Shown here one piece after another: positions 2,719-22,645 of a DNA stretch of 64,000 nt. Below the pieces are notes generated by a model that worked only from the letters and a program-made list of their open reading frames with translations, was not told the DNA's origin and ran no database searches. How positions within the stretch are numbered: position 1 is the stretch's first letter; every line of letters starts with the position of its first letter. This stretch comes from Candidatus Hydrogenedentota bacterium. Lineage in GTDB: Bacteria; Hydrogenedentota; Hydrogenedentia; Hydrogenedentales; JAJRTN01. Where the stretch lies: positions 1 through 64,000 of the forward strand of contig JAJRTN010000005.1 of assembly GCA_024278275.1 (NCBI GenBank), given 5' to 3'. A program made the position numbers and the translations under genes.

Positions 2719-4761
2719 ATGAGCGCCATGTTGCCCGCGCTTCTGATCACCCTGCTGACCGCGTCCGGCGTGGAAGCCTGGTTGGCCCCCTCCTTAATCG
2801 ATCCGCTCGATTCCGAAGGCACCAGGCCGGTGGTGCCTGGCGACAACCCGCGCGTGCTGAAGTCCGGGGAGCGCCCCGATGTGGAGGCCGCCCTCGGCGA
2901 AGGTGAGTCGGTTCTGCTCTTCGTCCGTGCGGGAAAGAAGGCCCTGACGGAGCTTTCCGTCGAGGTTACGCCGGTCAATGATTCTATCCCCGCGCCCCGG
3001 GTGCGCGTTCCGGTTCCCGTCGCATCGGACTCCCCGGGCCGACCTGTTTCCCTCGATGCCCTGGTGCCCGCCCGTCCGCGAAGCCTTCCCGCGGGGAACA
3101 CGGCGGTTTACTGGCTTAGCTACGACATACCGCGCACGGCGTCACCGGGTCGTTTTCGCCACGACATCAACCTCATGAACGGCCGGAAACGGGTCGCGTC
3201 GGTCCAGGTGCGGATCCGTGTTTTCGGTTTCACCCTCCCGGAAACACCGCGTCTGCCGATCCTCTTCGGCCTGGACCGTGCCGCCATGAAACGGACCCTG
3301 GGCGTGGGTGAAACCGACCTGGAGGCGTGGAAGCCCCTCTACGACTTCCTCCTGCGCGAGCGCATTGCCCTTTCCCTGACCGACGGCGGGGCGCTCCTGG
3401 AGCCGGCCACGCTTCAGGCGCACCTGGCCTACGTCATGGAGACCCACCCCATGGCCGTGGTTGATTTGGGCGGTTTCGACGGGGCCACCCTCGGCCATTT
3501 TCCCGCGCCGGGCATTGGGCAGGTGCAGGACCCCATGCAGTTCTTCCTGCACGACGTGATGCGTTGGCTCGCCAAAGGGGGCTGGGAGGAGCGCGCCTGC
3601 CTGGCCCTCGGCCATACGCCGGTTCGCACGGGGTGGCCTGAGGCCAGGCGGGATTACTTTCGCGCCTACCGGGCTGACAAACGTATTCCCCGCCTGGTTG
3701 CGGGGGAGCCCCATCCCTTTTTCGACGATTACGCCGAATGGTGGGCACTGCCTTTCGCGCGCTATTCGCCCTCCCTGGTGTCGCGTCTCTCCAACGGCGT
3801 GGGCCTCACCACCTTCGCCACGCCGAAGGCCGTTTCCTGCGAGGTCTATTCGGGGCGTTTCCTACCCCCGACCACCCTGGATGATCCGTCCGTCGCCGAT
3901 ATTTGCGACGGGAGCTTGTTCACTCTCTGGAAAAGTCCCGCCGCGCCCACGGAAAAGGAACCCGTCACTGTGGGAATTCACTATTCCGCGCCTGTCACGG
4001 CGCGGACCCTTACGGTGATCTGGCAGGCAGGCGGCGAGGCCACCGACTTTGATGTGCGGACCGCTTATGACGGGCGCACCTTCGGCAAGGCCACCATCCG
4101 GTGGGAACACCGCGGTCCGGCGACTCCCTACGGCATGAGCGTCTCCACGGGCCGGCTGAAGTACGAGAAGACCTTCCAGGCCTTGCGTTTGCGCATCAAC
4201 AACAGCGTGGGGGGCGGGCGCGTCATGATCGCGGAGATCATCCCCGGCGAGCCCGAAGCGGCCGAAACCCGCGGTGCCACGCCCCTGTCGCCGTGGCTGC
4301 TGCTGGAGCAAGATCGCTTCCCCTCGTTGGCCTTGGGCGCCCATCCCGCCGAGAGCCGCGCCGCGCCCTGGCTCTGCTGGGGCCACGGCTTCAAGGGGAT
4401 CCTGGCCGGTCGCGTCAACGCCTGGTCCCGTGCCTGGCGTGGTCCGGTGACCCTGGCGGACCTGGCCGCCGGTCTTCCCGGAATCGCCGCGGGGGCGCTG
4501 GTCTATCCCGGCTCGGAAGGACTTATGAGCACGGTTCGCCTGGAGCACCTGCGCGATGGTCTCGAAGACTACGACTACATCCAACTCCTCGCCGACAGGC
4601 TCCGCGCCGCGCCGAAGGCCGATCCCGAACAACGCGCGTTATTGCGCCTTCCGTCCATGCCTCGAAATCCTTCCCCCAAGCAACTCAATGCCTGGAGCGG
4701 TCTGTTCCTTCAACGGCGCGCCGCCATCGGGGAAGCCCTCGAAGCGGACGGCGCCGGGTGA
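2719..4761 (+). CDS. secreted DUF4091-type glycoside-hydrolase-like protein
   Basis: A 680-residue protein with an N-terminal hydrophobic signal segment (MLPALLITLLTASGVEA). The C-terminal block LVYPGSEGLMSTVRLEHLRD followed by GLEDYDYIQLLADRL (about residues 594-628) is the signature end of DUF4091 proteins, which I know as glycosidase-like barrels common in Planctomycetota. A galactose-binding-like segment lies in the middle (about residues 390-500). The AAGGA ribosome site at 2712-2716 is very close to the ATG at 2719 and better spaced for an in-frame ATG at 2728, so the start may be three codons downstream. Substrate unknown; a role in breaking down polysaccharide outside the cytoplasm is inferred from family and signal peptide. 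Confidence 0.75.
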   Translation: MSAMLPALLITLLTASGVEAWLAPSLIDPLDSEGTRPVVPGDNPRVLKSGERPDVEAALGEGESVLLFVRAGKKALTELSVEVTPVNDSIPAPRVRVPVPVASDSPGRPVSLDALVPARPRSLPAGNTAVYWLSYDIPRTASPGRFRHDINLMNGRKRVASVQVRIRVFGFTLPETPRLPILFGLDRAAMKRTLGVGETDLEAWKPLYDFLLRERIALSLTDGGALLEPATLQAHLAYVMETHPMAVVDLGGFDGATLGHFPAPGIGQVQDPMQFFLHDVMRWLAKGGWEERACLALGHTPVRTGWPEARRDYFRAYRADKRIPRLVAGEPHPFFDDYAEWWALPFARYSPSLVSRLSNGVGLTTFATPKAVSCEVYSGRFLPPTTLDDPSVADICDGSLFTLWKSPAAPTEKEPVTVGIHYSAPVTARTLTVIWQAGGEATDFDVRTAYDGRTFGKATIRWEHRGPATPYGMSVSTGRLKYEKTFQALRLRINNSVGGGRVMIAEIIPGEPEAAETRGATPLSPWLLLEQDRFPSLALGAHPAESRAAPWLCWGHGFKGILAGRVNAWSRAWRGPVTLADLAAGLPGIAAGALVYPGSEGLMSTVRLEHLRDGLEDYDYIQLLADRLRAAPKADPEQRALLRLPSMPRNPSPKQLNAWSGLFLQRRAAIGEALEADGAG

Positions 4762-4880: not shown

Positions 4881-5948
4881 ATGGCCAAGGCAAGCAAGAA
4901 GTTCAAGGTGGGCCTCATCGGAGCGGGAGGCATCGCCAATGCCTGCCACCTGTCCAATTGGCTGGAATTGGAAGGCGAGGGTCGGGTCGAGGTCGTGGGG
5001 ATCTGCGACATCGTGCGCGAACGGGCCATTAAAGGCGCCGACATGTTCCCCGGGGCCAAGCCCTGGTTCAACTACCAGAAAATGCTCGGGGAAATCGACT
5101 TCGACATCATCGACGTATGCACCCAGAACCGCTGGCACGCGCCCATTACCATCGACGCCCTCAAAGCCGGCGCCCATGTCCTGGTCGAAAAACCCATGGC
5201 CATGAACACCCGGGAATGCGAGGCCATGATCCGCGCCGCCAAGGCAAAAGGAAGAACCCTCATGGTCGCCCAGCACATGCGTTTCGAGGCGCCCCACGAG
5301 AAGCTGAAAGAAGTGGTCGAGCGCGGCGAACTCGGCGAGATCTACGCCGCCAGCGCCACCATGCTGCGCCGGCGCGGGGTTCCCGGATGGGGTAAGTTTC
5401 ATATCAAGCGGGAATCCCTCGGCGGACCGCTCATCGACATCGGTGTCCACGTAATGGACCTGTGCGTCTGGCTCATGGGTTGTCCCAAGCCCGTCGCGGC
5501 ATCGGGTAAAGTTTACCGCATATTCGGCGACCGGCCCGATTTCTTCAACGGCGACTGGGGCGTGCCCTACCCGCCCAGGCAATTCGACGTGGAAGACTAC
5601 GCCACGGCCCTCATCCGCTTCGAGAAGGGCATCACCATGCAGGTGACGGTGTGCTGGGCGGCCAACATCCCGGAAACATCGCACAACGTGCAGATTCTCG
5701 GTGACAAGGCCGGCATCGCCACCAACCCCCTGGGTGTCTATGGCGCCGATCATTCTTCCCTGACCAGCAGGAAGTTCGATCTCCTGCTCCCGCAAGAGGG
5801 ACATCGCATGGAGATTCGGCACTTCACCGAATGCCTGGAGCAGAACAAACCGGTGCGCGTGCAGCCCCGGGAATCCCTGCGCATCCAGAAAATCATCGAC
5901 GCCATCTACGAATCATCGAAGAAGAACAGGGAGATCGTCATCCGTTAG
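4881..5948 (+). CDS. Gfo/Idh/MocA family NAD(P)-dependent oxidoreductase
   Basis: 355 residues. The N-terminal Rossmann fold has GLIGAGGIANACH (dinucleotide-binding loop), then IIDVCTQNRWHAPI and the family signature AGAHVLVEKPMAMN. The C-terminal alpha/beta domain carries GGPLIDIGVHVMDL, where Asp and His belong to the usual catalytic set. These enzymes oxidise or reduce hydroxyls of sugars, inositols and related compounds. No signal peptide, so cytoplasmic. The start at 4881 is preceded by AAAGGAG. It follows the DUF4091 gene by 119 bp on the same strand, which suggests a shared sugar-degradation role. The exact substrate cannot be read from sequence. Confidence 0.9.
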   Translation: MAKASKKFKVGLIGAGGIANACHLSNWLELEGEGRVEVVGICDIVRERAIKGADMFPGAKPWFNYQKMLGEIDFDIIDVCTQNRWHAPITIDALKAGAHVLVEKPMAMNTRECEAMIRAAKAKGRTLMVAQHMRFEAPHEKLKEVVERGELGEIYAASATMLRRRGVPGWGKFHIKRESLGGPLIDIGVHVMDLCVWLMGCPKPVAASGKVYRIFGDRPDFFNGDWGVPYPPRQFDVEDYATALIRFEKGITMQVTVCWAANIPETSHNVQILGDKAGIATNPLGVYGADHSSLTSRKFDLLLPQEGHRMEIRHFTECLEQNKPVRVQPRESLRIQKIIDAIYESSKKNREIVIR

Positions 5949-5954
5949 GGCCAT

Positions 5955-5985
5955 GTGGGCGGGACGCCCGCGACAGGTATTCTCC
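5955..5985. repeat. half copy of hairpin repeat R1
   Basis: GGGCG-GGA-CGCCC forms a short hairpin (5957-5969). The flank GCGACAGGTATTC matches the reverse complement of the right half of the R1 element at 47614-47660. It lies between two convergent genes. Confidence 0.5.
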
Positions 5986-6029
5986 AGCTTGCCTGCGGGT
6001 GTTCCATCGGTCCCATAGGTGTCCCAAGC

Positions 6030-6407
6030 CTACGGCGCGAAGGGCTCCTCCAGGGTGATTGCCGCCACCAGGTCACGCAATTGATGGGCCTCGTGTGTCT
6101 TGGGGAAAACGCCCGCCGCGCCCACCCGTTCGCACAGGTGGGGTTCTATCGCCTCATCGGTAAGCAGATGAATCGGTAAGTGCGCGGGAATATCCGGGTC
6201 TTCCATCAGCATGGCGCAAAGCTCCGGTCCGCTGAACACGGGGAGCGCCATGTCCAACAGGACCAGGTTCGGCGTTTCGTCCACGGCGGTCGCGTAGGCA
6301 TCCTGCCCGTCACCGGCCCATATCACCTCGTGACCATGGCCCGACAGCTCGGCCGCCATGATTTCAAAGAGCCCACTGTCGTGGGTGGCCAAGAGGATAC
6401 GTGCCAT
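6030..6407 (-). CDS. single-domain response regulator receiver
   Basis: 125 residues that are only a CheY-like receiver: the N-terminal strand MARILLATHD, the phospho-acceptor Asp in NLVLLDMALP, and a Lys in GVFPKTH near the end. The acidic pocket is weaker than usual, since the first strand carries THD instead of an acidic pair. There is no output domain, so it must act through protein contact or as a phosphate sink. An AAAGGAG site precedes the ATG. It is divergent from the secreted protein at 6781. It could belong to the hybrid kinase-Hpt relay at the window start, but nothing proves that. Confidence 0.85.
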   Translation of the reverse strand: MARILLATHDSGLFEIMAAELSGHGHEVIWAGDGQDAYATAVDETPNLVLLDMALPVFSGPELCAMLMEDPDIPAHLPIHLLTDEAIEPHLCERVGAAGVFPKTHEAHQLRDLVAAITLEEPFAP

Positions 6408-6780
6408 TTTTTTGCTCCTTTCGGGATAAATACCAGCCGTAACCGATCGTATCTTTCAGAAACCGCCATCAGCGGGAGCATGGGTGACCATGATAATCCG
6501 GGTACACCCAAAAGACACTTCCGTACACCAGGTTGCCGCGTCACTACTGCTTCCGTATCGGCGCACTTTCCCTGTCGCGGAACCATTACCGTTCAGACCG
6601 TACCCGGGAACCATGGTAGCAGCACCGTGTCCCCACATCAATGATTCTTTATCAATGATTGTTCTTGTCAAGGATTGTTCTTTTCAAATCCCCGCTCCCG
6701 TGCTACAATGATTTCACGGAGTTCGTATTTTGGATGAGTGACGGGTCGGTCGCGGTAGTGGCCAGGGGAAGGGATGTACA
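6408..6780. other. gene-free divergent intergenic region
   Basis: 373 bp between the receiver gene (leftward) and the secreted protein (rightward), visibly more AT-rich than its surroundings. The stretch 6639-6686 contains repeated ATCAATGATT and GATTGTTCTT blocks. No open reading frame looks real and no clear promoter boxes stand out, though both neighbours must be transcribed from here. Confidence 0.5.
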
Positions 6781-7893
6781 ATGACATTGCAAACGGTATC
6801 GTGTCGGCCAAGCAGGGCGAGTGTATGGAGTGCCCTGGGCATGGTCCTCGTTCTGATGGGCGTGTTTGCCATGGCTGCGCAATGCGAGGTTACCCTTCTC
6901 TATGATGACGGGAACGATACCGCCGACGACTACAGGCAGGTTTCGGAGCCGGTTACGCACCTTGTACGTTTTTCCGTACCCACCACGTTGACGGGCAGTC
7001 AGCACCAGGTGACCAAAATTACGTGGTATCCGGGGTATTTCTATTTCATCAGTGACCCCAAAGTGGTGGCGCGTGTTGCTACCAACACCCTTGTTTTCGG
7101 GCAGAGCCAAAACTGCGTGGTGCAGGATGCCGTGCCGGAACCCACGGCGAGCGCCACCACGACCCCGACGCAATTTCGCTCCTACATGCTGAACCGGGTG
7201 GACATCTCCCAGAATGACTACCAGGTCCAGGTGGTGCCGGGCGATGATTTCTTCGCGGGCGTGGCCGCGCAGAAAATGCACCTGGGCATGGATGTGCTGA
7301 CCGCCGGGGCGACGGCCACCTTCCAGACCACCGTACCTTCCACCCAGTCATGTCCCACCTCTTTTCCCTCGTCACAGCGGCCCGCGCCGCCAACCCAGTT
7401 TACCGGCAGCATGGTGACGACCCCGACCTCGGGCGGCGCTTCCTTTGTGCAGACCCATTGGGCGGGGCGCAACTATGAACTGAAGGCCTCGGGCGTGCTC
7501 ACCCCCGCCCAACTCATCGAAACCGTCACCGTCAGCGAGGACTGTACGGGCTGGTTCGTGTCCACGCCCACCCCGGCCCGGCACTGCCAATGTAACGGGA
7601 ATTATAATTTCTTCGCCCAGAACTGGCTTATCCGCGCCACCCTGGCCGGGTCTTCCTCACCGGAATTGGGCTGTTACCGGGCCATCGTGTGGGTTAATCT
7701 CGATGCGACCACGGCAGGACAAGGCATTGAAACCGATCCCTTCAATGTGCTTGATGACGGCGTGGTGGCTGTTGGAACGGGGGGGCGGGTAAACATCTTC
7801 CCGAGCAGGGCGAGCGGCGCGTTCTCGATTACCAAGCCCCTGTCGCTTCACGCCGTGGGCGGCGTGGTCGTCCTGGGGCAATCGGCGGTCTGA
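6781..7893 (+). CDS. secreted protein of unknown family
   Basis: 370 residues. An N-terminal signal peptide is visible (basic residues, then ALGMVLVLMGVFAMAAQC). The mature part is rich in Thr, Ser and beta-strand-like segments, with cysteines in QNCVVQD, QSCPTS, SEDCTG, RHCQCN and LGCYR that could form disulfides. It has no catalytic motif I recognise. The Cys within AAQCEV is not a convincing lipobox. The start is supported by GGGAAGGG seven bases upstream. It may be a surface or extracellular structural protein; that is only an impression. Confidence 0.6.
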   Translation: MTLQTVSCRPSRASVWSALGMVLVLMGVFAMAAQCEVTLLYDDGNDTADDYRQVSEPVTHLVRFSVPTTLTGSQHQVTKITWYPGYFYFISDPKVVARVATNTLVFGQSQNCVVQDAVPEPTASATTTPTQFRSYMLNRVDISQNDYQVQVVPGDDFFAGVAAQKMHLGMDVLTAGATATFQTTVPSTQSCPTSFPSSQRPAPPTQFTGSMVTTPTSGGASFVQTHWAGRNYELKASGVLTPAQLIETVTVSEDCTGWFVSTPTPARHCQCNGNYNFFAQNWLIRATLAGSSSPELGCYRAIVWVNLDATTAGQGIETDPFNVLDDGVVAVGTGGRVNIFPSRASGAFSITKPLSLHAVGGVVVLGQSAV

Positions 7894-15119: not shown

Positions 15120-17426
15120 CTACGCGCTCGCCACGTCCGCATCGTCCTCGTCCAGGACCTGCAACGTGGGCGGCGTGCCGCCCGCAGGCTTGTAGAACCG
15201 GACGATTTCGGCGGATCGTTCGGCCACTTCCTTGAGACGCTCCACCTTCGGTTCCAGCCGGGCGATGGTATCCGCCTGTTTCCGGCGGATTTCCTCGGCC
15301 TCGGCCGCGATTTCCGCCAGCCGCGTGTTGATGTCGTCGATCACTTTTTCACATCCCCCGAGCAGCGCTTCGCCATAGGCCTCCCGCCGTGCCGTGAGTT
15401 GCTCCGTGTATTGCTGGTGAACCGAGGGGATCTCCCGGCCCTTCTCGTCGCGATACCCCCGCAGGAGCATGCGGTCGACTCGTTCGCAAACGCGCCTGGC
15501 CAACTGACGTTTCCGGGCGCCCATGCTGGTCACGGCCCGCGCCAGCCAGCCCAGCACCGCCCCGGCCAAGGCCCCCACGGCGGCCCCCGCCCCCGCCAGC
15601 AGGGGCTGGGAGAAGGGTTGCTGAATATAGGCCACCAGGTTCCCGTCGCCGCCGGTGAGGAGTACCCGCACCGCCTCGTACTGCTCCGGGAAACGCTGGA
15701 GTCCATAGGCCGCGCCCGCGAGGATGCCCGCGCCCGCGACGGCGCCCAACAGGGTAAAGGCCGCGTAGGATCCTTTCAGCCCGAGGGGGATGCCCCCGAA
15801 GGGATAGCGCGTCGCTTCGATCTTGTCCAGCACCAGTGCTTGCAGGGTCTCCCCCACGGGGCCGGCGTGGGCCAGGATGCGTTGCTCCACGAAATCGACC
15901 TGCTTGTTTATCTCGCCGTTCAAGCGCTTCAAATACGCCTCCAGGCGCCGTTCCAGCCCCATGGTCAGGGGCTTCAGATCGTTGCGCACGGCGTTCTTGT
16001 AGTTTTCGCCCTCCTGGATCCACGCGCGCAAGGGGCCCAGGAAAAGCTTCTGCACCGAATCCTTCCCCAGCAAGGTATCGACCACCCGCTCATAGCCGGG
16101 GTAGTGCGCGCCGTCCACGTCGCCGCCGGTGGTCATGGTCGCGTACTGCCCCGTCAGGTGCGCGAGACGCTCCCGTGCCTCTTCCAACTCGGATTCCAGC
16201 CGAACCCGTTCCTCCTCCAGGTCGTCCAGGCGCGGCACGTTCCGGGCCAGGTCGAGCTTCACGTCCAGGGGTCGCGCAAAACGCCAGGCCAGCCGTTCGA
16301 TGAAACTGCATACCGACTCGACGACGGCGCCCTCGCGGTTTTCCGTGTAAAGATAGCTCAGTAGACGATCCCGGAAGATATTGAAGCGGCTTTGTTCCAG
16401 CAGATACGCTGCGGCCGCCGCGTCGGGGTCCTCCGCCTCGCGAAGACGCTGTTGCACCTCGAAGGGAATCTTGACCTTGTTGTCCTTGTCTAAATCATCC
16501 AGTTTCAGCCGCCGTCCCAGTTGCGCCGCGTAAAGCGCGTAGAGGCTCGACATGAAGAACAGCTCGGGATTCGACACGATGCCCTCCAACCCCCGGAAGA
16601 GATCCTTCGCCGGTCCCCGGTGCCCCGTGGGATCGATCTCGTCCTCGTTGAGCTGGTCGGACTTGTTAACCAGGAAAAACATCTGGCGCCGCCGTTGGCC
16701 GACCACGTCCTGGATGAAATCCCGGTTGTGCTCGTTGCCCGCGTTCTGGCTGTCCAGCAGGCACACCACCAGGTGGCTGTGGGGAATGATGTCCTGGGCA
16801 ATGCGCGAATGGGTTTCCGAAATGCTGTGAACCCCCGGCGAATCCACCAGGGCGATGTCCTCCTCCAGCCGGTCACTGGGCACCGAAACCAGGATCTCCT
16901 CGAACTTGTCGCGCAGGGGCCGCATCTGCGGGAAATCCTCGTCCGCGCTCACCGTGCCCAAGGCGGCCAGTGTCTGACGGACCTTCCGCACCGTGAAGTT
17001 TTCGAAGAAGATGGTCAAGTCATTGTCGATTTCCGTGCGTTTCACCGTGGCATCGGTGCCATAGGCCTCCAGCAGGCGGTTCAGCGCATCGATTTCCGAC
17101 ACCGTCGCCGGATTGATCAGGCGCAGCACCACCTTCATCTCGTCGCCCCGCACCACGTGGGTGATCTTGGTCGTGCATTCCTCCAGCACCGTGGGCAGGT
17201 ACTCATCGCCCAGAAAAGCGTTGATCAACGTGGACTTGCCCACGTTGAAGGCGCCCACGAAGACCACGCGGTAGCGGCCATCCTGCAGTTCCTTCCGCTT
17301 CCGTTCGATGAGGAGACGTTCCTCCTCGCGGTCCGCCTCGAAATCGGGGTCATCCACGAAGTCCTTCAGGTGCTGCAGGGCTTCGAAGGCCCAGGTCCGG
17401 TTTTCCAGATGGTTGTTTACACTCAT
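15120..17426 (-). CDS. bacterial dynamin-like large GTPase
   Basis: 768 residues. G1 is GAFNVGKS (residues 58-65), a Thr-rich switch follows (EECTTKIT), G3 is VDSPG and G4 is NKSD. The G domain covers roughly residues 50-290, followed by long helices (EEERVRLESELEEARERLAH). Two glycine-rich membrane-inserting segments lie in the last third (FTLLGAVAGAGILAGAAYGL; LLAGAGAAVGALAGAVLGW). Such proteins remodel or fuse membranes in a GTP-dependent way. Bacterial versions often come as pairs; only one is seen here. The ATG at 17426 has an AAAAAGGA site upstream, whereas the longer in-frame start lacks one. Confidence 0.85.
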   Translation of the reverse strand: MSVNNHLENRTWAFEALQHLKDFVDDPDFEADREEERLLIERKRKELQDGRYRVVFVGAFNVGKSTLINAFLGDEYLPTVLEECTTKITHVVRGDEMKVVLRLINPATVSEIDALNRLLEAYGTDATVKRTEIDNDLTIFFENFTVRKVRQTLAALGTVSADEDFPQMRPLRDKFEEILVSVPSDRLEEDIALVDSPGVHSISETHSRIAQDIIPHSHLVVCLLDSQNAGNEHNRDFIQDVVGQRRRQMFFLVNKSDQLNEDEIDPTGHRGPAKDLFRGLEGIVSNPELFFMSSLYALYAAQLGRRLKLDDLDKDNKVKIPFEVQQRLREAEDPDAAAAAYLLEQSRFNIFRDRLLSYLYTENREGAVVESVCSFIERLAWRFARPLDVKLDLARNVPRLDDLEEERVRLESELEEARERLAHLTGQYATMTTGGDVDGAHYPGYERVVDTLLGKDSVQKLFLGPLRAWIQEGENYKNAVRNDLKPLTMGLERRLEAYLKRLNGEINKQVDFVEQRILAHAGPVGETLQALVLDKIEATRYPFGGIPLGLKGSYAAFTLLGAVAGAGILAGAAYGLQRFPEQYEAVRVLLTGGDGNLVAYIQQPFSQPLLAGAGAAVGALAGAVLGWLARAVTSMGARKRQLARRVCERVDRMLLRGYRDEKGREIPSVHQQYTEQLTARREAYGEALLGGCEKVIDDINTRLAEIAAEAEEIRRKQADTIARLEPKVERLKEVAERSAEIVRFYKPAGGTPPTLQVLDEDDADVASA

Positions 17427-17776
17427 GCCGCTATCCTTTTTCACGGAACGGGACCGCGTGTCGAACAAGGTTATGTATGGACCCGCAGTATACACAATGC
17501 TCCCTGTCCGGGCGAAGCCAATAAGACGGAGCCGGGGGGGCCGGGGTCCGCGGCATGGATCCCGTTTTTTCTGCCACCCGAGAACGTTTTCACGAGGGAC
17601 GTTGGCCTATCGCGAACCCAATACCGGTCGGCACGGACTTGTCGCATGGCTCGTTTGTGGGGGAGCCGGTTCGGAGTATCCTGGTCTTTTACGGGCGGAT
17701 CACGTTTTTTCGCCATGCAAGACGCGGGGAACGCTGTTCTTCGGCACGTTGACGAACACGGGACTTGCGGGTCGGG
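17427..17776. other. gene-free stretch
   Basis: 350 bp between the dynamin-like gene and the end of the PARG-like gene, both on the minus strand. It must hold the promoter of the dynamin-like gene. I see a G-run (17534-17540) and no convincing reading frame, repeat or terminator. Confidence 0.4.
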
Positions 17777-18784
17777 TTAGTTTCCGTCACTGACGCCCCA
17801 CTCGAAACCGATGTGGGCAAGGCGATCAGTCAGCTCCCTGGTTGTTTGGGGCATGTTGCCGGCGATCTCCGTGGCAAGCAGATTCCAGGCTTCGTCCAGG
17901 GCGGCCGTGCCCGCCGCGTCGAAGGTGTGGAAAACAAGGCGGTCGAGACCGGCCCAATGAGCGGCGAGGATTTGCAGCATGGCCATGAGGACACGATGGC
18001 CGCCGAAAGCGCCGCATCCCCAGAATCCCGTATGAACGGCTACCGGGCACGGTTCCCCAGCCATGCGGCGTGATTCCAGCATGGCGGCTCCGAAGCCGGT
18101 GTAGGCGGTCACCAGGATGTTTTCGATGGTTTCACGATCATATTTCCCATAACCACAGGCGGGTGCCGCCATGGCGATGAGGTTGGTGACGGTGGGCGGA
18201 TCAATGCTGCGGATGGCGCGCCGGACCACGTCGGGTGGGGCCTGGGCAAAGCGATTTCCGTACAGTCCGCGGGGCCGGCCCTCGGCGGCATTCGGCCCGG
18301 TTGCCATGGCGCACCTTCGTTCGACCCCTGCCACGAGGACGGGCGTGGGCATCCCCTGCTCGACTGTCAGCGTCACGTGGCCCCCCGCCTGGAGCGCTTC
18401 TTTCAATGCCCCCAGGGCCGGATGTTCACACACCTGCATCTCATCCTGGGCCAGGAGCGGCGAACGGTAGGCCACGAAGAGATGGGGGTCGGCGAAGTTG
18501 ACGTGCCATTCAACGCCCTTGGCATTCGTCAGGACCGGAGCGTAATCGTAAACATCCTCGCGGGCCTCCACCCGCCCGCCCGTATTTCGCGAGTCGATCT
18601 CCTTTGGCAGCGCCATGGCCTTCCACCGGCTGTAAACCAACCGCCCCTTATGAGAACACCCCGCCGGACAGCTCACGTCAAACACCACCTTCTTGTTGGG
18701 ATGTCCCCAAAGCGGCGGATGGTCGGTCATCAACCGTTGTGTGTCGAAGGTCAAACGTTGAAGAGGCTCGGAATTACTGATCAT
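17777..18784 (-). CDS. PARG / macrodomain-like protein with altered catalytic loop
   Basis: 335 residues. The clearest family sign is VHTGFWGCGAFGGHRVLMAM (residues 250-269), followed by LQILAAHWAGLDRLVFHTF. It matches the conserved block of poly(ADP-ribose) glycohydrolases (G.WGCGAFGGD..LK...Q..AA..AGR...FTF). Upstream, VNFADPHLF (95-103) and AQDEMQVCEHPAL (112-124) sit where PARG has its NFA...GGG...QEE catalytic loop; here the GGG is absent and the QEE reads QDE. So it may bind ADP-ribose and hydrolyse weakly or not at all. An AGGAG site precedes the ATG. It is the last gene of a three-gene operon, 112 bp after the HIRAN-ARPP-1 gene. The macrodomain call is pattern recognition, not a search result. 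Confidence 0.65.
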   Translation of the reverse strand: MISNSEPLQRLTFDTQRLMTDHPPLWGHPNKKVVFDVSCPAGCSHKGRLVYSRWKAMALPKEIDSRNTGGRVEAREDVYDYAPVLTNAKGVEWHVNFADPHLFVAYRSPLLAQDEMQVCEHPALGALKEALQAGGHVTLTVEQGMPTPVLVAGVERRCAMATGPNAAEGRPRGLYGNRFAQAPPDVVRRAIRSIDPPTVTNLIAMAAPACGYGKYDRETIENILVTAYTGFGAAMLESRRMAGEPCPVAVHTGFWGCGAFGGHRVLMAMLQILAAHWAGLDRLVFHTFDAAGTAALDEAWNLLATEIAGNMPQTTRELTDRLAHIGFEWGVSDGN

Positions 18785-18896: not shown

Positions 18897-20372
18897 TCAT
18901 GCTCTCACCGTGTGGGCGGAGAGATGGCAAAGACGGTTGTCGTGCCAGAGGGCGTTGCCGCTGACGGTTTCGCCTTCGATGATGAATTCTTCCCCGTCGC
19001 CGACGGGCTTCTTTACGGGCCGGATCTCGTTGGCAAGCTGTCGCAGGAAGGCCCGCGCCGTCGTTTCGGACGTGGGCGGTGTTTCGCCCGGGGCCATGGA
19101 TGCCTGGAAGAAGTAGGCATCGGCCAACCGGGGCCAGATCATTTCCAGCGTGCGGGGGGTATCAAAGAGATCCACCCCCATGACCCGGTCACCGCTTGCC
19201 GCCAGCACGCCCGCCGCGGCACTGGGCAGACGCAGGCGTTCGCGGTATTCACGACGCCGGTCTTCCGTGCGGTCCATGCCTTCCGTGAGGGAGCCGGTAG
19301 GGGAATTCACGTTCATCGAGGAAAGCGTTTCGGCCACGTTTACCCAGACCCGCCCCTGGTCGGAGTGGACGGCCCCGGACGCCATTCGGCTCCGGTTGAC
19401 GCTTCGGCTTTTCGAGGCGCGCAGTTCGGGCGGGGCGTAATGGGTGGTGGAGAACTTCAAGCCCGTACGGTGCCACCGGCCCTGTTCGACGCAACTCACG
19501 GGAAGCACCAGTACCTCTTGGGGGGGCACCATGACGGTGATGTTCACCGTCCGATTCTGCTTCTCCCCGGTGAGTACCTCGCCCTCGGGCACCAGGATGG
19601 GCTTTTCACCCAGGTTCGCCAGGAGCAACTCCGGCACGCTGCCGCTTTCCGACATCTCGCGCACCTCCGCGTTTCCCGTGGCGAGGGCCTCCGCCAGCAG
19701 GAGGTATTCCGCTTCGTGTCCATTGGGCGTGTAGATCGGGAAAAGGGTCAGGTTGTGATGGTGAAGCGCTTCGCCCAACACCACGTTGGCGAGCATGTCT
19801 TTCAGATCTTCCAGGGCGCGGGCTTTACGTCGCGTTGACGCTTCGGCGGCTTTCCAGGGGAAAAGGGCCAAAAGCATATGCGTTTCCGGGAGCGCATCGT
19901 CTTGCCGCAGGGCCAGGAGATGCTCATGCACGTCCCGAATGACCTTCGGCAGCGTCCACTGATCCGCCATGCGCCACGTGGCCAGCACCATATTGTGGAA
20001 CGCTTCCGCCGTGTTCCCGGGATTCTCGCGTTGTTGCAGGATGGACCGGCCTTCGGCGGTCGGGTGTAAGCGGAGATCGAGCGGTATCAGCCCATGGCGC
20101 ACCCGCCGGTCGTCCGTGACCTTTCCCCGGATTTCCACCGCCCGACGGTCGAGCAATGGTCCCAGCCAACTTGCCACCCGCCGGGGAAGGTAGCCCACGG
20201 GCAGCGCCTCGCTGTTTTCAACCCGCACCGCGTTGGGATCCCGCCGGTTCTCCGGGTCACGATGGAATGCTACCCGATCTCTGGGCAAGATACGTGCCGA
20301 GCGGTGTAACCCAGTGATAACGGTTTCAATGACACCGAGCAGGTATTCTTGTTCGTTTGTTTGCATGGTCAT
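18897..20372 (-). CDS. HIRAN domain fused to ARPP-1 (DUF6569) domain
   Basis: 491 residues. Residues ~14-85 fit a HIRAN domain (FHRDPENRRDPNAVRVE, then LPVGYLPRRVASWLGPLL), a fold known from SNF2-type repair proteins that bind DNA ends or stalled structures. Residues ~205-490 fit ARPP-1/DUF6569: SVPELLLANLGEKPILVPEG, GEVLTGEKQNRTVNITVMVP and LPVSCVEQGRWHRTG. As I recall, ARPP-1 is named for association with ADP-ribosylglycohydrolases and rhodanese-phosphatase proteins. The neighbour is PARG-like, which fits. An AAGGAG site lies 11 bases before ATG 20372; a second ATG lies six bases inside. Middle gene of the sigma-54-type operon. Biochemical function unknown. Confidence 0.8.
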   Translation of the reverse strand: MTMQTNEQEYLLGVIETVITGLHRSARILPRDRVAFHRDPENRRDPNAVRVENSEALPVGYLPRRVASWLGPLLDRRAVEIRGKVTDDRRVRHGLIPLDLRLHPTAEGRSILQQRENPGNTAEAFHNMVLATWRMADQWTLPKVIRDVHEHLLALRQDDALPETHMLLALFPWKAAEASTRRKARALEDLKDMLANVVLGEALHHHNLTLFPIYTPNGHEAEYLLLAEALATGNAEVREMSESGSVPELLLANLGEKPILVPEGEVLTGEKQNRTVNITVMVPPQEVLVLPVSCVEQGRWHRTGLKFSTTHYAPPELRASKSRSVNRSRMASGAVHSDQGRVWVNVAETLSSMNVNSPTGSLTEGMDRTEDRRREYRERLRLPSAAAGVLAASGDRVMGVDLFDTPRTLEMIWPRLADAYFFQASMAPGETPPTSETTARAFLRQLANEIRPVKKPVGDGEEFIIEGETVSGNALWHDNRLCHLSAHTVRA

Positions 20373-20458: not shown

Positions 20459-20836
20459 TCAGGCCGCCGCCACGGCATCCGTGTTTGCCAGACGGTAATG
20501 ACGGGTCTGCTCGTTGATCCCGTAGGTCGTGAGCCACACGTACTCGCCCGGCTGTTCCCCTTGACCCACCACCGCCAGCATCTCCTCACCGAAGATGCGA
20601 AATGAAAAGTACCAGGTCGGTTCGCCTTCCGCCTTGCGTCCCCAGTATCGCGGCCGATACCCCAGCAGCATGACCTGTTCCGCGCGCAGGTGGCGGCTGT
20701 GCCGGAAGAGCACGGTGGCCAATCCGCGGGTAAGTCCAAAACCCGAATACTCCCGCACCCGGTCCAACGCATGCTGGCTGATTGTCAATCCCCGTGCTTT
20801 GCTCACCTTGAGAAACTTCCGGCCCGTGGTTGCCAT
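20459..20836 (-). CDS. small basic protein, first gene of the sigma-54 operon
   Basis: 125 residues, no membrane segment or signal. It begins with basic residues, then LTISQHALDRVREYSGFGLT, which recalls the SxHAxxRxxER start of DUF4258 and some BrnT/RelE-fold toxins. The rest alternates strands (TWYFSFRIFGEEMLAVVG, YVWLTTYGINEQTRHY). I cannot assign a family; a small nuclease or RNA-binding fold is a guess. The ATG at 20836 follows a GGGAG stretch, while a longer in-frame start would run into the predicted leader. It is 86 bp ahead of the HIRAN-ARPP-1 gene and first behind the -24/-12 promoter. Confidence 0.65.
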   Translation of the reverse strand: MATTGRKFLKVSKARGLTISQHALDRVREYSGFGLTRGLATVLFRHSRHLRAEQVMLLGYRPRYWGRKAEGEPTWYFSFRIFGEEMLAVVGQGEQPGEYVWLTTYGINEQTRHYRLANTDAVAAA

Positions 20837-20872: not shown

Positions 20873-20900
20873 GTCCGCTGCTTTCACTGTAATTTATTAA

Positions 20901-20915
20901 GCATGGGACGTGCCA
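20901..20915 (-). promoter_or_regulatory. sigma-54 (-24/-12) promoter for the three-gene operon
   Basis: Read on the minus strand, 20915 down to 20899 is TGGCACG-TCCC-ATGCT. Consensus is TGGCACG-N4-TTGCT, so only one consensus base differs, and the key GG and GC pairs are exactly 10 bases apart. It points at the gene starting at 20836, leaving a leader of about 50 bases. The divergent neighbour is a GAFTGA-containing sigma-54 activator, which strongly supports the call. No clear upstream activator dyad was found. Confidence 0.8.
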
Positions 20916-20984: not shown

Positions 20985-21014
20985 TTGGAGTTCTCAAGGG
21001 TTGCGTGCTATGCT
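20985..21014 (+). promoter_or_regulatory. possible sigma-70 promoter of the activator gene
   Basis: TTGGAG (20985-20990), 18 bases, then TATGCT (21009-21014) preceded by an extended -10 TGC. It would start transcription near 21021, about 50 bases before the ATG at 21074. Both boxes are imperfect. Confidence 0.4.
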
Positions 21015-21073
21015 CAGGAAATGCGTACATGAAGCGCTTTCGCTGTACCAACCGTCACGCAGGGGAGTCGGCC

Positions 21074-22645
21074 ATGGCCCGCAAAAGCAAAGTAACCGTG
21101 ATCACCTACAACGGTGTCGATGGCGCGTGCGCGGCGGCGGCCGTGCTCCTTAAACACCCCCGTGCCGAAGTGCGGGTGAGCAGCGCCCGGGGTATTGCCG
21201 ACACCTTCACCGCGCTTCAAGACAAGCAGACGGGCTGCATCCACGTCTGCGGCGTGGGCGTCACGTGTCCCTGGGGTGCCCTTGCCGCCGCGCTGAGACC
21301 AGTGCAAAACAACGGCGTCAAGGTCTATTGGCACTGCGGGCGCGGTTATTTCACGGACGATCAGGAGGAGAACTTCGGCCGGCTGTGTCACACGCGTTTC
21401 ATGGATGCGGGCACCAACACGGCCGCCCTGGCGGAGCATTTCGGCGTTTCCCATACCCGGGAAGGACAATGGCTCGTCGAACTGTCCTGGCACGACCGGC
21501 ATGTATCGGGGCACAAAGGCCCCGCCGAACGCTCCAAGGAAGAAAGCGATTGGCTCGATCTCATCGATGCCTCCCTGGCGCAGTACTTCAAGTACCAGGA
21601 CCGGGACCCTTATTTGCGGTGCATCGGGAAACTCGCCCGACAGGACTTCACCGAGGACGACCATGTCGCCATCGAGGCCTTTCGCCGCACGGGCTACAAG
21701 TACCTGCTCCACGGCGGCACGCCCGCGGTGCGTCAGCTCAAGGAACGCATACAGCGGTGCGCCGACGCCAACCGCCACATCATCATCACCGGGGAATCAG
21801 GCACGGGGAAGGAACACGTGGCGCACCTGCTGTGGGAGCGAAGCCCCCGCGCCATGGGGCCCATGGTGGCGGTGAACTGCGCCCTTTACGCAGGCAGCGC
21901 CAACCTGGCCAACTCCGATCTCTTCGGTCACCGGAAAGGCGCTTTCACCGGGGCCGAGCGGGATCGGCAGGGGAAGTTCGTGGCGGCCCACCGGGGCATC
22001 CTCTTTCTCGACGAGATTGGTGAATTGCCGCCGGAAGTGCAGGCGAAACTGCTTCGCGTGCTGGAAGATGGACGGGTGACGCCGGAAGGGGCGGATCAAT
22101 ACGAGCAGGAGGTGGACGTGTGTGTCATCGCCGCGACCCACCGCGACCTGCCCCGCATGATTCGGAAAGGCCTCTTTCGTGCGGACCTTTACCACCGTTT
22201 GGCCACCCTGCGGATCCACGTGCCTCCCCTGCGCGACCGCGTTGCTGACATCGACATCATCGTCGCGGAACGACTCGAAATACTTGCCGAGGAGGGCCGC
22301 ACGCGCAAACTCAGCAAGCGCGACTTCGCCCGGCTGCGTGAATACGCCTGGCCCGGCAATGTGCGCCAACTCATCAAACTCATCGACCGCGCCACGTTGC
22401 TCGATCTGTCCATCAAGGAAGTTCTGGAAGAAGAACAGGCCCTTGGCGTCCTTGAAGAAGAGGAAGGGCAAAAGGGCGAAGTGCTCCTGCCCTCGTCCCG
22501 CGAAGACGTCCGTCCCCTGGAGGAAGTCCAGCGCCGATACGCCCGCCACGCCTGGGAACTCCACCACCGCCAACACCGCGCCACCGCCAATGCCCTTGGC
22601 ATCAGCGAAAACACCCTGCGATACAAATACCTGGCGGACGGGTGA
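21074..22645 (+). CDS. sigma-54 activator with DHH-phosphoesterase-like sensor domain
   Basis: 523 residues. The AAA+ core has Walker A GESGTGKE (240-247), GAFTGA (289-294, the sigma-54 contact loop), Walker B ILFLDEIGE (309-317) and sensor II WPGNVRQL (427-434). A Fis-type helix-turn-helix closes the protein (ATANALGISENTLRYKYL, 503-520). Residues 1-205 are not a receiver, PAS or GAF domain. They start VTVITYNGVDGACAAAAVLL, which matches the opening strand-loop-helix of DHH-family phosphoesterases (HNDxDG) with most metal ligands changed; Asp16 remains. So it may sense a nucleotide or oligonucleotide rather than cleave it. AGGGGAG supports the start at 21074. It is divergent from the operon it probably controls. 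Confidence 0.85.
   Translation: MARKSKVTVITYNGVDGACAAAAVLLKHPRAEVRVSSARGIADTFTALQDKQTGCIHVCGVGVTCPWGALAAALRPVQNNGVKVYWHCGRGYFTDDQEENFGRLCHTRFMDAGTNTAALAEHFGVSHTREGQWLVELSWHDRHVSGHKGPAERSKEESDWLDLIDASLAQYFKYQDRDPYLRCIGKLARQDFTEDDHVAIEAFRRTGYKYLLHGGTPAVRQLKERIQRCADANRHIIITGESGTGKEHVAHLLWERSPRAMGPMVAVNCALYAGSANLANSDLFGHRKGAFTGAERDRQGKFVAAHRGILFLDEIGELPPEVQAKLLRVLEDGRVTPEGADQYEQEVDVCVIAATHRDLPRMIRKGLFRADLYHRLATLRIHVPPLRDRVADIDIIVAERLEILAEEGRTRKLSKRDFARLREYAWPGNVRQLIKLIDRATLLDLSIKEVLEEEQALGVLEEEEGQKGEVLLPSSREDVRPLEEVQRRYARHAWELHHRQHRATANALGISENTLRYKYLADG

Follow-up and report, generated by a model that had tools for sequence, protein, structure and literature searches.

A conserved, probable sigma-54 promoter with a predicted tandem enhancer between a HIRAN-ARPP operon and a divergent activator gene in Candidatus Hydrogenedentota

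A -24/-12 promoter between two divergent genes in a 64,000-nucleotide stretch of Candidatus Hydrogenedentota DNA (the window) is very probably a real switch, judging from its retention in related bacteria together with paired, predicted activator-binding sites. The promoter itself (TGGCACGTCCCATGCT, 20900..20915, minus strand), identified by sequence match and by conservation in relatives, is an ordinary kind of element; new here are the conserved tandem enhancer upstream of it and the DHH-like sensor of the adjacent activator. We consider it highly likely that sigma-54 genuinely acts at this site to transcribe the operon ORF125 - HIRAN-ARPP-1 - PARG-like, and that this operon would be activated through the upstream dyads by the divergently encoded, DHH-like-gated sigma-54 activator (bEBP). 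Regulation by sigma-54 and a bEBP is well supported by the comparative sequence data, and we infer in addition a ligand for the sensor and a repair function for the operon.

An earlier note on this DNA had described minus-strand TGGCACG and ATGCT boxes separated by TCCC, with exact GG-N10-GC spacing and one mismatch to consensus, all of which was present on reading the sequence. The location was also right, except that the limit of 20899 lay one base too far and the 16 nt of TGGCACGTCCCATGCT run from 20915 to 20900. Both the exact spacing and the flanking consensus of a sigma-54 promoter were found, and the only mismatch to TGGCACGN4TTGCW falls on the first base of the -12 box, where A replaces T; the resulting ATGCT instead of TTGCT counts against the promoter reading. 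Box geometry predicts +1 at 20889, the same position as proposed earlier, giving a leader of 53 nt; the start codon, an ATG at 20836, has GGGAGA in front of it. The cognate sigma factor is encoded by a single rpoN copy in the source genome. An RNA family search of the region found no RNA families, and terminator and sigma-70 consensus scans returned matches at no more than chance level.

Apart from TGGCACGTCCCATGCT, the window contained no match that kept GG/GC intact and had fewer than two mismatches. However good, the match taken alone is weak evidence, and only its location makes it unlikely: dinucleotide-model shuffles of the whole window gave an average of 0.73 equally good matches per 64 kb, compared with P ~0.0012 for a match inside the 237-bp divergent gap on the correct strand. 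The earlier view that such a match beside an activator gene is unlikely by chance thus holds for the gap, whereas the match alone is weaker evidence than had been implied (~0.7 expected per 64 kb). Across the whole genome, TGGCACGN5TGCW occurred at 22 sites, versus 13 for the reversed control pattern. Such frequencies would suit an explanation by chance resemblance, with the operon transcribed from another promoter. We hold this to be extremely improbable in view of the boxes found in every intact gap of the relatives and at two unlinked operons, accompanied by tandem dyads at fixed spacing; it is because of this conservation, and not the TGGCACGTCCCATGCT match itself, that chance resemblance is excluded.

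Relatives recovered by the search were Candidatus Hydrogenedentota metagenome assemblies, with 12 related activators in 11 other genomes of the phylum; the search found none in viral contigs. Absence of the boxes from close relatives that keep the operon had been named beforehand as a refuting outcome, and the promoter passed this check. Nine related loci have an intact divergent gap, and in every one of them a box scan identified a -24/-12 GG-N10-GC pair at a distance of 42-95 nt from the start of the divergent gene (L015, TGGCATGGATTGTGCT; L017, TGGCATACCGATTGCT; L018, TGGCACGTCTCATGCT; L019, TGGCACGATACGTGCT; L021, TGGCACGATACCTGCT; L023, TGGCACGAGGTGTGCG; L024, TGGCATGGGGCATGCT; L025, TGGCATGAAACATGCT; L026, TGGCACGGCAGTTGCG). 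Left out of these nine were L022, which begins at a contig end, and L016 and L020, which have no divergent operon and where no site passed the box scan before the activator genes. The box was also kept where operon and activator are unlinked, namely in genome G065, with an ORF125-GGCT-HIRAN-ARPP operon and the activator on different contigs, and in genome G021, with a lone ORF125 gene on a contig other than the activator's. At the unlinked operon L083 the box (TGGCACGTGTCCTGCT) lies 91 nt before the gene, and at the unlinked locus L084 (TGGCATGCGGGATGCT) 63 nt before it. The chance of a box was 0.0005-0.012 per locus. The product of these values is extremely small, but relatedness among the loci and their discovery via the activator mean that it is not a formal probability. 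No box at operon-promoter distance was present upstream of the gene in the seven non-HIRAN ARPP loci searched. A Myxococcota relative (L034) was not counted as a conserved case, as its TGGCACGGATGTTGAA has no GC and no convincing dyad pair was seen; there (4941-7664, minus strand), the activator relative and a 908-aa protein that matches DnaB_C face each other, and TGGCACGGATGTTGAA lies between them. In L020, a perfect TGGCACGAGGATTGCT (3749-3764, minus strand) lies directly downstream of the activator gene and is directed back into the 3' end of that gene.

Most boxes are preceded, at a distance of approximately 80-135 bp, by another conserved element, which consists of two 15-bp dyads of the RCTC-N7-GAGY type. 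In the window, dyad 1 (ACGCATTTCCTGAGC, 21012..21026, minus strand), the predicted activator-binding half of an enhancer, is situated 111 nt upstream of the T of the -24 box and matches 7/8 arm positions, and dyad 2 (ACGCAACCCTTGAGA, 20992..21006, minus strand; 6/8 arm positions) follows at exactly 20 bp. Neither copy in the window is a perfect dyad. Both candidate binding sites lie at enhancer distance. Perfect RCTC-N7-GAGY was present at gap 7 in six of ten clade A upstream regions and at no other gap from 0 to 15. A dyad weight matrix built from five sites with left-out testing, clade B being excluded from training, recovered tandem pairs, which in clade A are spaced 20 bp apart; in the untrained, divergent clade B the spacing is 21-22 bp. 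The model was derived from the same loci, though left-out and untrained loci were tested. Pair tests (200 shuffles each) gave P <= 0.005 in 13 of 14 regions, the exception being L018 (P 0.065), where the dyads are weak. At L026 the pair sits farther off than elsewhere. When the 22 sigma-54-like sites of the source genome were used as a control, a dyad pair was seen only at 20900..20915 (score 13.4; next 2.8).

The earlier proposal that the promoter ties the activator to the operon is supported by both box conservation and the tandem upstream dyads, and because the dyads are shared the tie is more direct than mere adjacency. Gene adjacency does not prove regulation, and the source genome has several sigma-54-type promoters and other bEBP-like genes, so that a different bEBP could in principle activate a real sigma-54 promoter here while the adjacent one acts elsewhere. 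This is very unlikely given that the bEBP gene itself carries dyads (as it does in L016 and, more weakly, in L020, both without an intact box pair), and that dyads are also present at the L083 and L084 operons, which have no adjacent bEBP gene and whose genomes encode the bEBP. Several sigma-54-like sites of the source genome (G000; L040, L049, L054, L056 and L058) are located before genes of flagellar basal-body-like, rpoN-like and type IV pilin-like type, and likely represent a sigma-54 regulon.

Upstream of the activator gene, a possible sigma-70-type promoter (20985..21014, plus strand; TTGGAG-18-TATGCT with a TG extension) was read from the sequence; it was not returned by the consensus scan, and its core (TGAGCATA) is common to L019-L021. 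Because the probable -10 box of this gene (TATGCT) is overlapped by dyad 1, autoregulation of the activator is suggested. The same overlap, together with dyad-like sites at the bEBP gene of L020, where the operon box is lacking, would fit dyads that mainly control the bEBP's own promoter by autorepression and are not an operon enhancer. We judge this quite unlikely: at L083 the first dyad, at -108 from the box, is clear (a second dyad at 20 bp is not), and L084 has dyads at -112. Since both carry the dyad without an activator gene, the predicted enhancer appears separable from the activator's promoter.

The first gene of the operon encodes ORF125 (20459..20836, minus strand), a 125-aa orphan protein with a weak, fold-level likeness to RelE/HigB toxins (E 0.02). 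It is followed by the HIRAN-ARPP-1 fusion protein (18897..20366, minus strand) and, as the last gene of the presumed operon, by a PARG-like macrodomain protein (PARG_cat_C; 17777..18784, minus strand). The PARG-like gene was found only at the locus of the source genome; several relatives carry a GGCT-like gene in its place, and in clade B the genes opposite the activator, as far as they are identifiable, encode AAA ATPase or GGCT-like proteins. Downstream, after a 281-bp gap and on the same strand, lies a gene for a dynamin-like GTPase similar to LeoA/LeoBC models (15120-17495, minus strand). As the terminator scan was no better than chance, this gene was left out of the presumed operon. ARPP is predicted to act on ADP-ribose-derived sugars and has been seen beside ADP-ribosylglycohydrolases and in a two-gene neighborhood with HIRAN, a DNA 3'-end binding domain (PMC9503650). 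Similarly, ARPP adjoins a PARG-like protein here, which fits an ADP-ribose theme; in contrast to the systems of that NAD+-ADPr network, HIRAN forms a fusion with ARPP, and a dedicated activator is predicted to place the operon under sigma-54 control. Neither sigma nor DHH is mentioned in the main text of that study (PMC9503650). A role of the operon in repair or conflict is plausible.

The activator (21074..22645, plus strand) consists of a predicted DHH-like fold (aa 1-205), an AAA+ domain with GAFTGA and a C-terminal, Fis-like HTH, whose HTH_8 match is below the Pfam cut-off. Its AAA+/HTH core is of the PspF/RtcR type and scored best with PADLOC RtcR_PspF2 CARF_AAA_HTH (302 bits). On this basis, the N-terminal domain could be a divergent CARF and the protein an ordinary RtcR-PspF-type CARF activator. 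Several results make this unlikely. The PADLOC match is confined to residues 216-517, and the RtcR model (NF038308) gave 267 bits, again for the AAA+/HTH part only, versus a cut-off of 650 bits, which places the protein outside that family. Pfam and profile searches with residues 1-205 returned no family match and no CARF match. An AlphaFold2 model of this domain (pLDDT 88, 12 sequences) gave mostly DHH proteins as top Foldseek matches, with probability 1.00, E from 3e-5 and modest TM-scores of about 0.5-0.55; these included 6mtz, a functionally uncharacterized H. pylori protein, as well as a PAP phosphatase and RecJ enzymes. The 14 matches at E <= 0.001 were almost all DHH-family proteins, and no CARF structure was named among the best 50. 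On the combined profile and fold evidence, we reject a CARF identity for the N-terminal domain.

By its modeled fold, the domain resembles the DHH superfamily. Pfam and hhalign against RecJ/NrnA of related genomes were negative, and because this sequence-profile link failed with shallow profiles the DHH assignment stays a fold-level claim. While the predicted fold resembles that of the DHH phosphoesterases RecJ, NrnA and PAP phosphatase, their acidic and histidine motifs are largely replaced and their sequence profiles fail to recognize the sensor. The catalytic motifs (DxDxDG, D, DHH), placed by eye, were not found intact: relative to RecJ of the source genome, DYDVDG reads YNGVDG, VDNG reads VCGV and DHH reads HCG (HCGR), and most metal ligands are therefore gone. 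Clade B activators lack the last Asp as well. Based on the model, the sensor is probably a non-catalytic ligand-binding domain that is DHH-like by fold. In the G021 activator, an in-frame TAG is present at codon 6 from the homologous ATG (L017:2530-2547), representing a sequencing error, a later start or a broken gene.

The closest parallel is RtcR, a divergent sigma-54 activator with a related AAA+/HTH core and a ligand-sensing N-terminal domain that controls a repair operon (rtcBA; rsr-yrlBA-rtcBA) and whose sensor binds damaged tRNA ends (PMC7790460). Unlike RtcR, the activator described here has a DHH-like domain instead of CARF, and its operon contains no rtcA or rtcB, comprising instead HIRAN-ARPP-1, a small orphan and a PARG-like or GGCT-like protein. 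The best reading of these features is an RtcR-like, ligand-gated sigma-54 stress/repair circuit with a new activator subfamily. In such a circuit, the RpoN (sigma-54) promoter at 20900..20915 would drive the operon, and the divergent bEBP would bind the two tandem dyads, whose centers lie ~110 and ~130 bp ahead of +1, and would remodel the closed RNA polymerase-sigma-54 complex through ATP hydrolysis. Gating would be exerted by the catalytically degenerate DHH-phosphoesterase-like domain, whose most likely ligand, by analogy with CARF in RtcR, is a nucleotide or a signal derived from nucleic acid, and with dyad 1 placed over the probable -10 box the bEBP probably limits its own synthesis as well. 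The probable targets of the induced proteins are nucleic acids or proteins that have been damaged or ADP-ribosylated. More tentatively, and with somewhat less than even confidence, the new subfamily may use its dead DHH/RecJ-like domain to sense nucleotides or nucleic-acid ends and induce an operon (HIRAN-ARPP-1, RelE-like, PARG- or GGCT-like) for ADP-ribose-linked damage repair or for defense against phages. If true, this would be a second RtcR-like circuit with different chemistry. No DHH-type sigma-54 activator was found described in the open-access literature; if confirmed, the DHH-like sensor would add a kind of input domain for these activators and provide a handle on the role of ARPP and HIRAN-ARPP proteins. 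From a single promoter-like match, an entire regulatory circuit has thereby been predicted for an uncultured phylum, including an enhancer sequence open to direct testing.

PspF has no N-terminal domain, and that of NorR is GAF. The activator shares with bEBPs of this type the AAA+ domain with GAFTGA, the C-terminal HTH and upstream sites within enhancer distance, and differs from them in its N-terminal domain and its dyad. The GAFTGA sigma-54 contact loop is altered in two clade B activators, reading GAYTSA in L023 and GAYTGG in L026.
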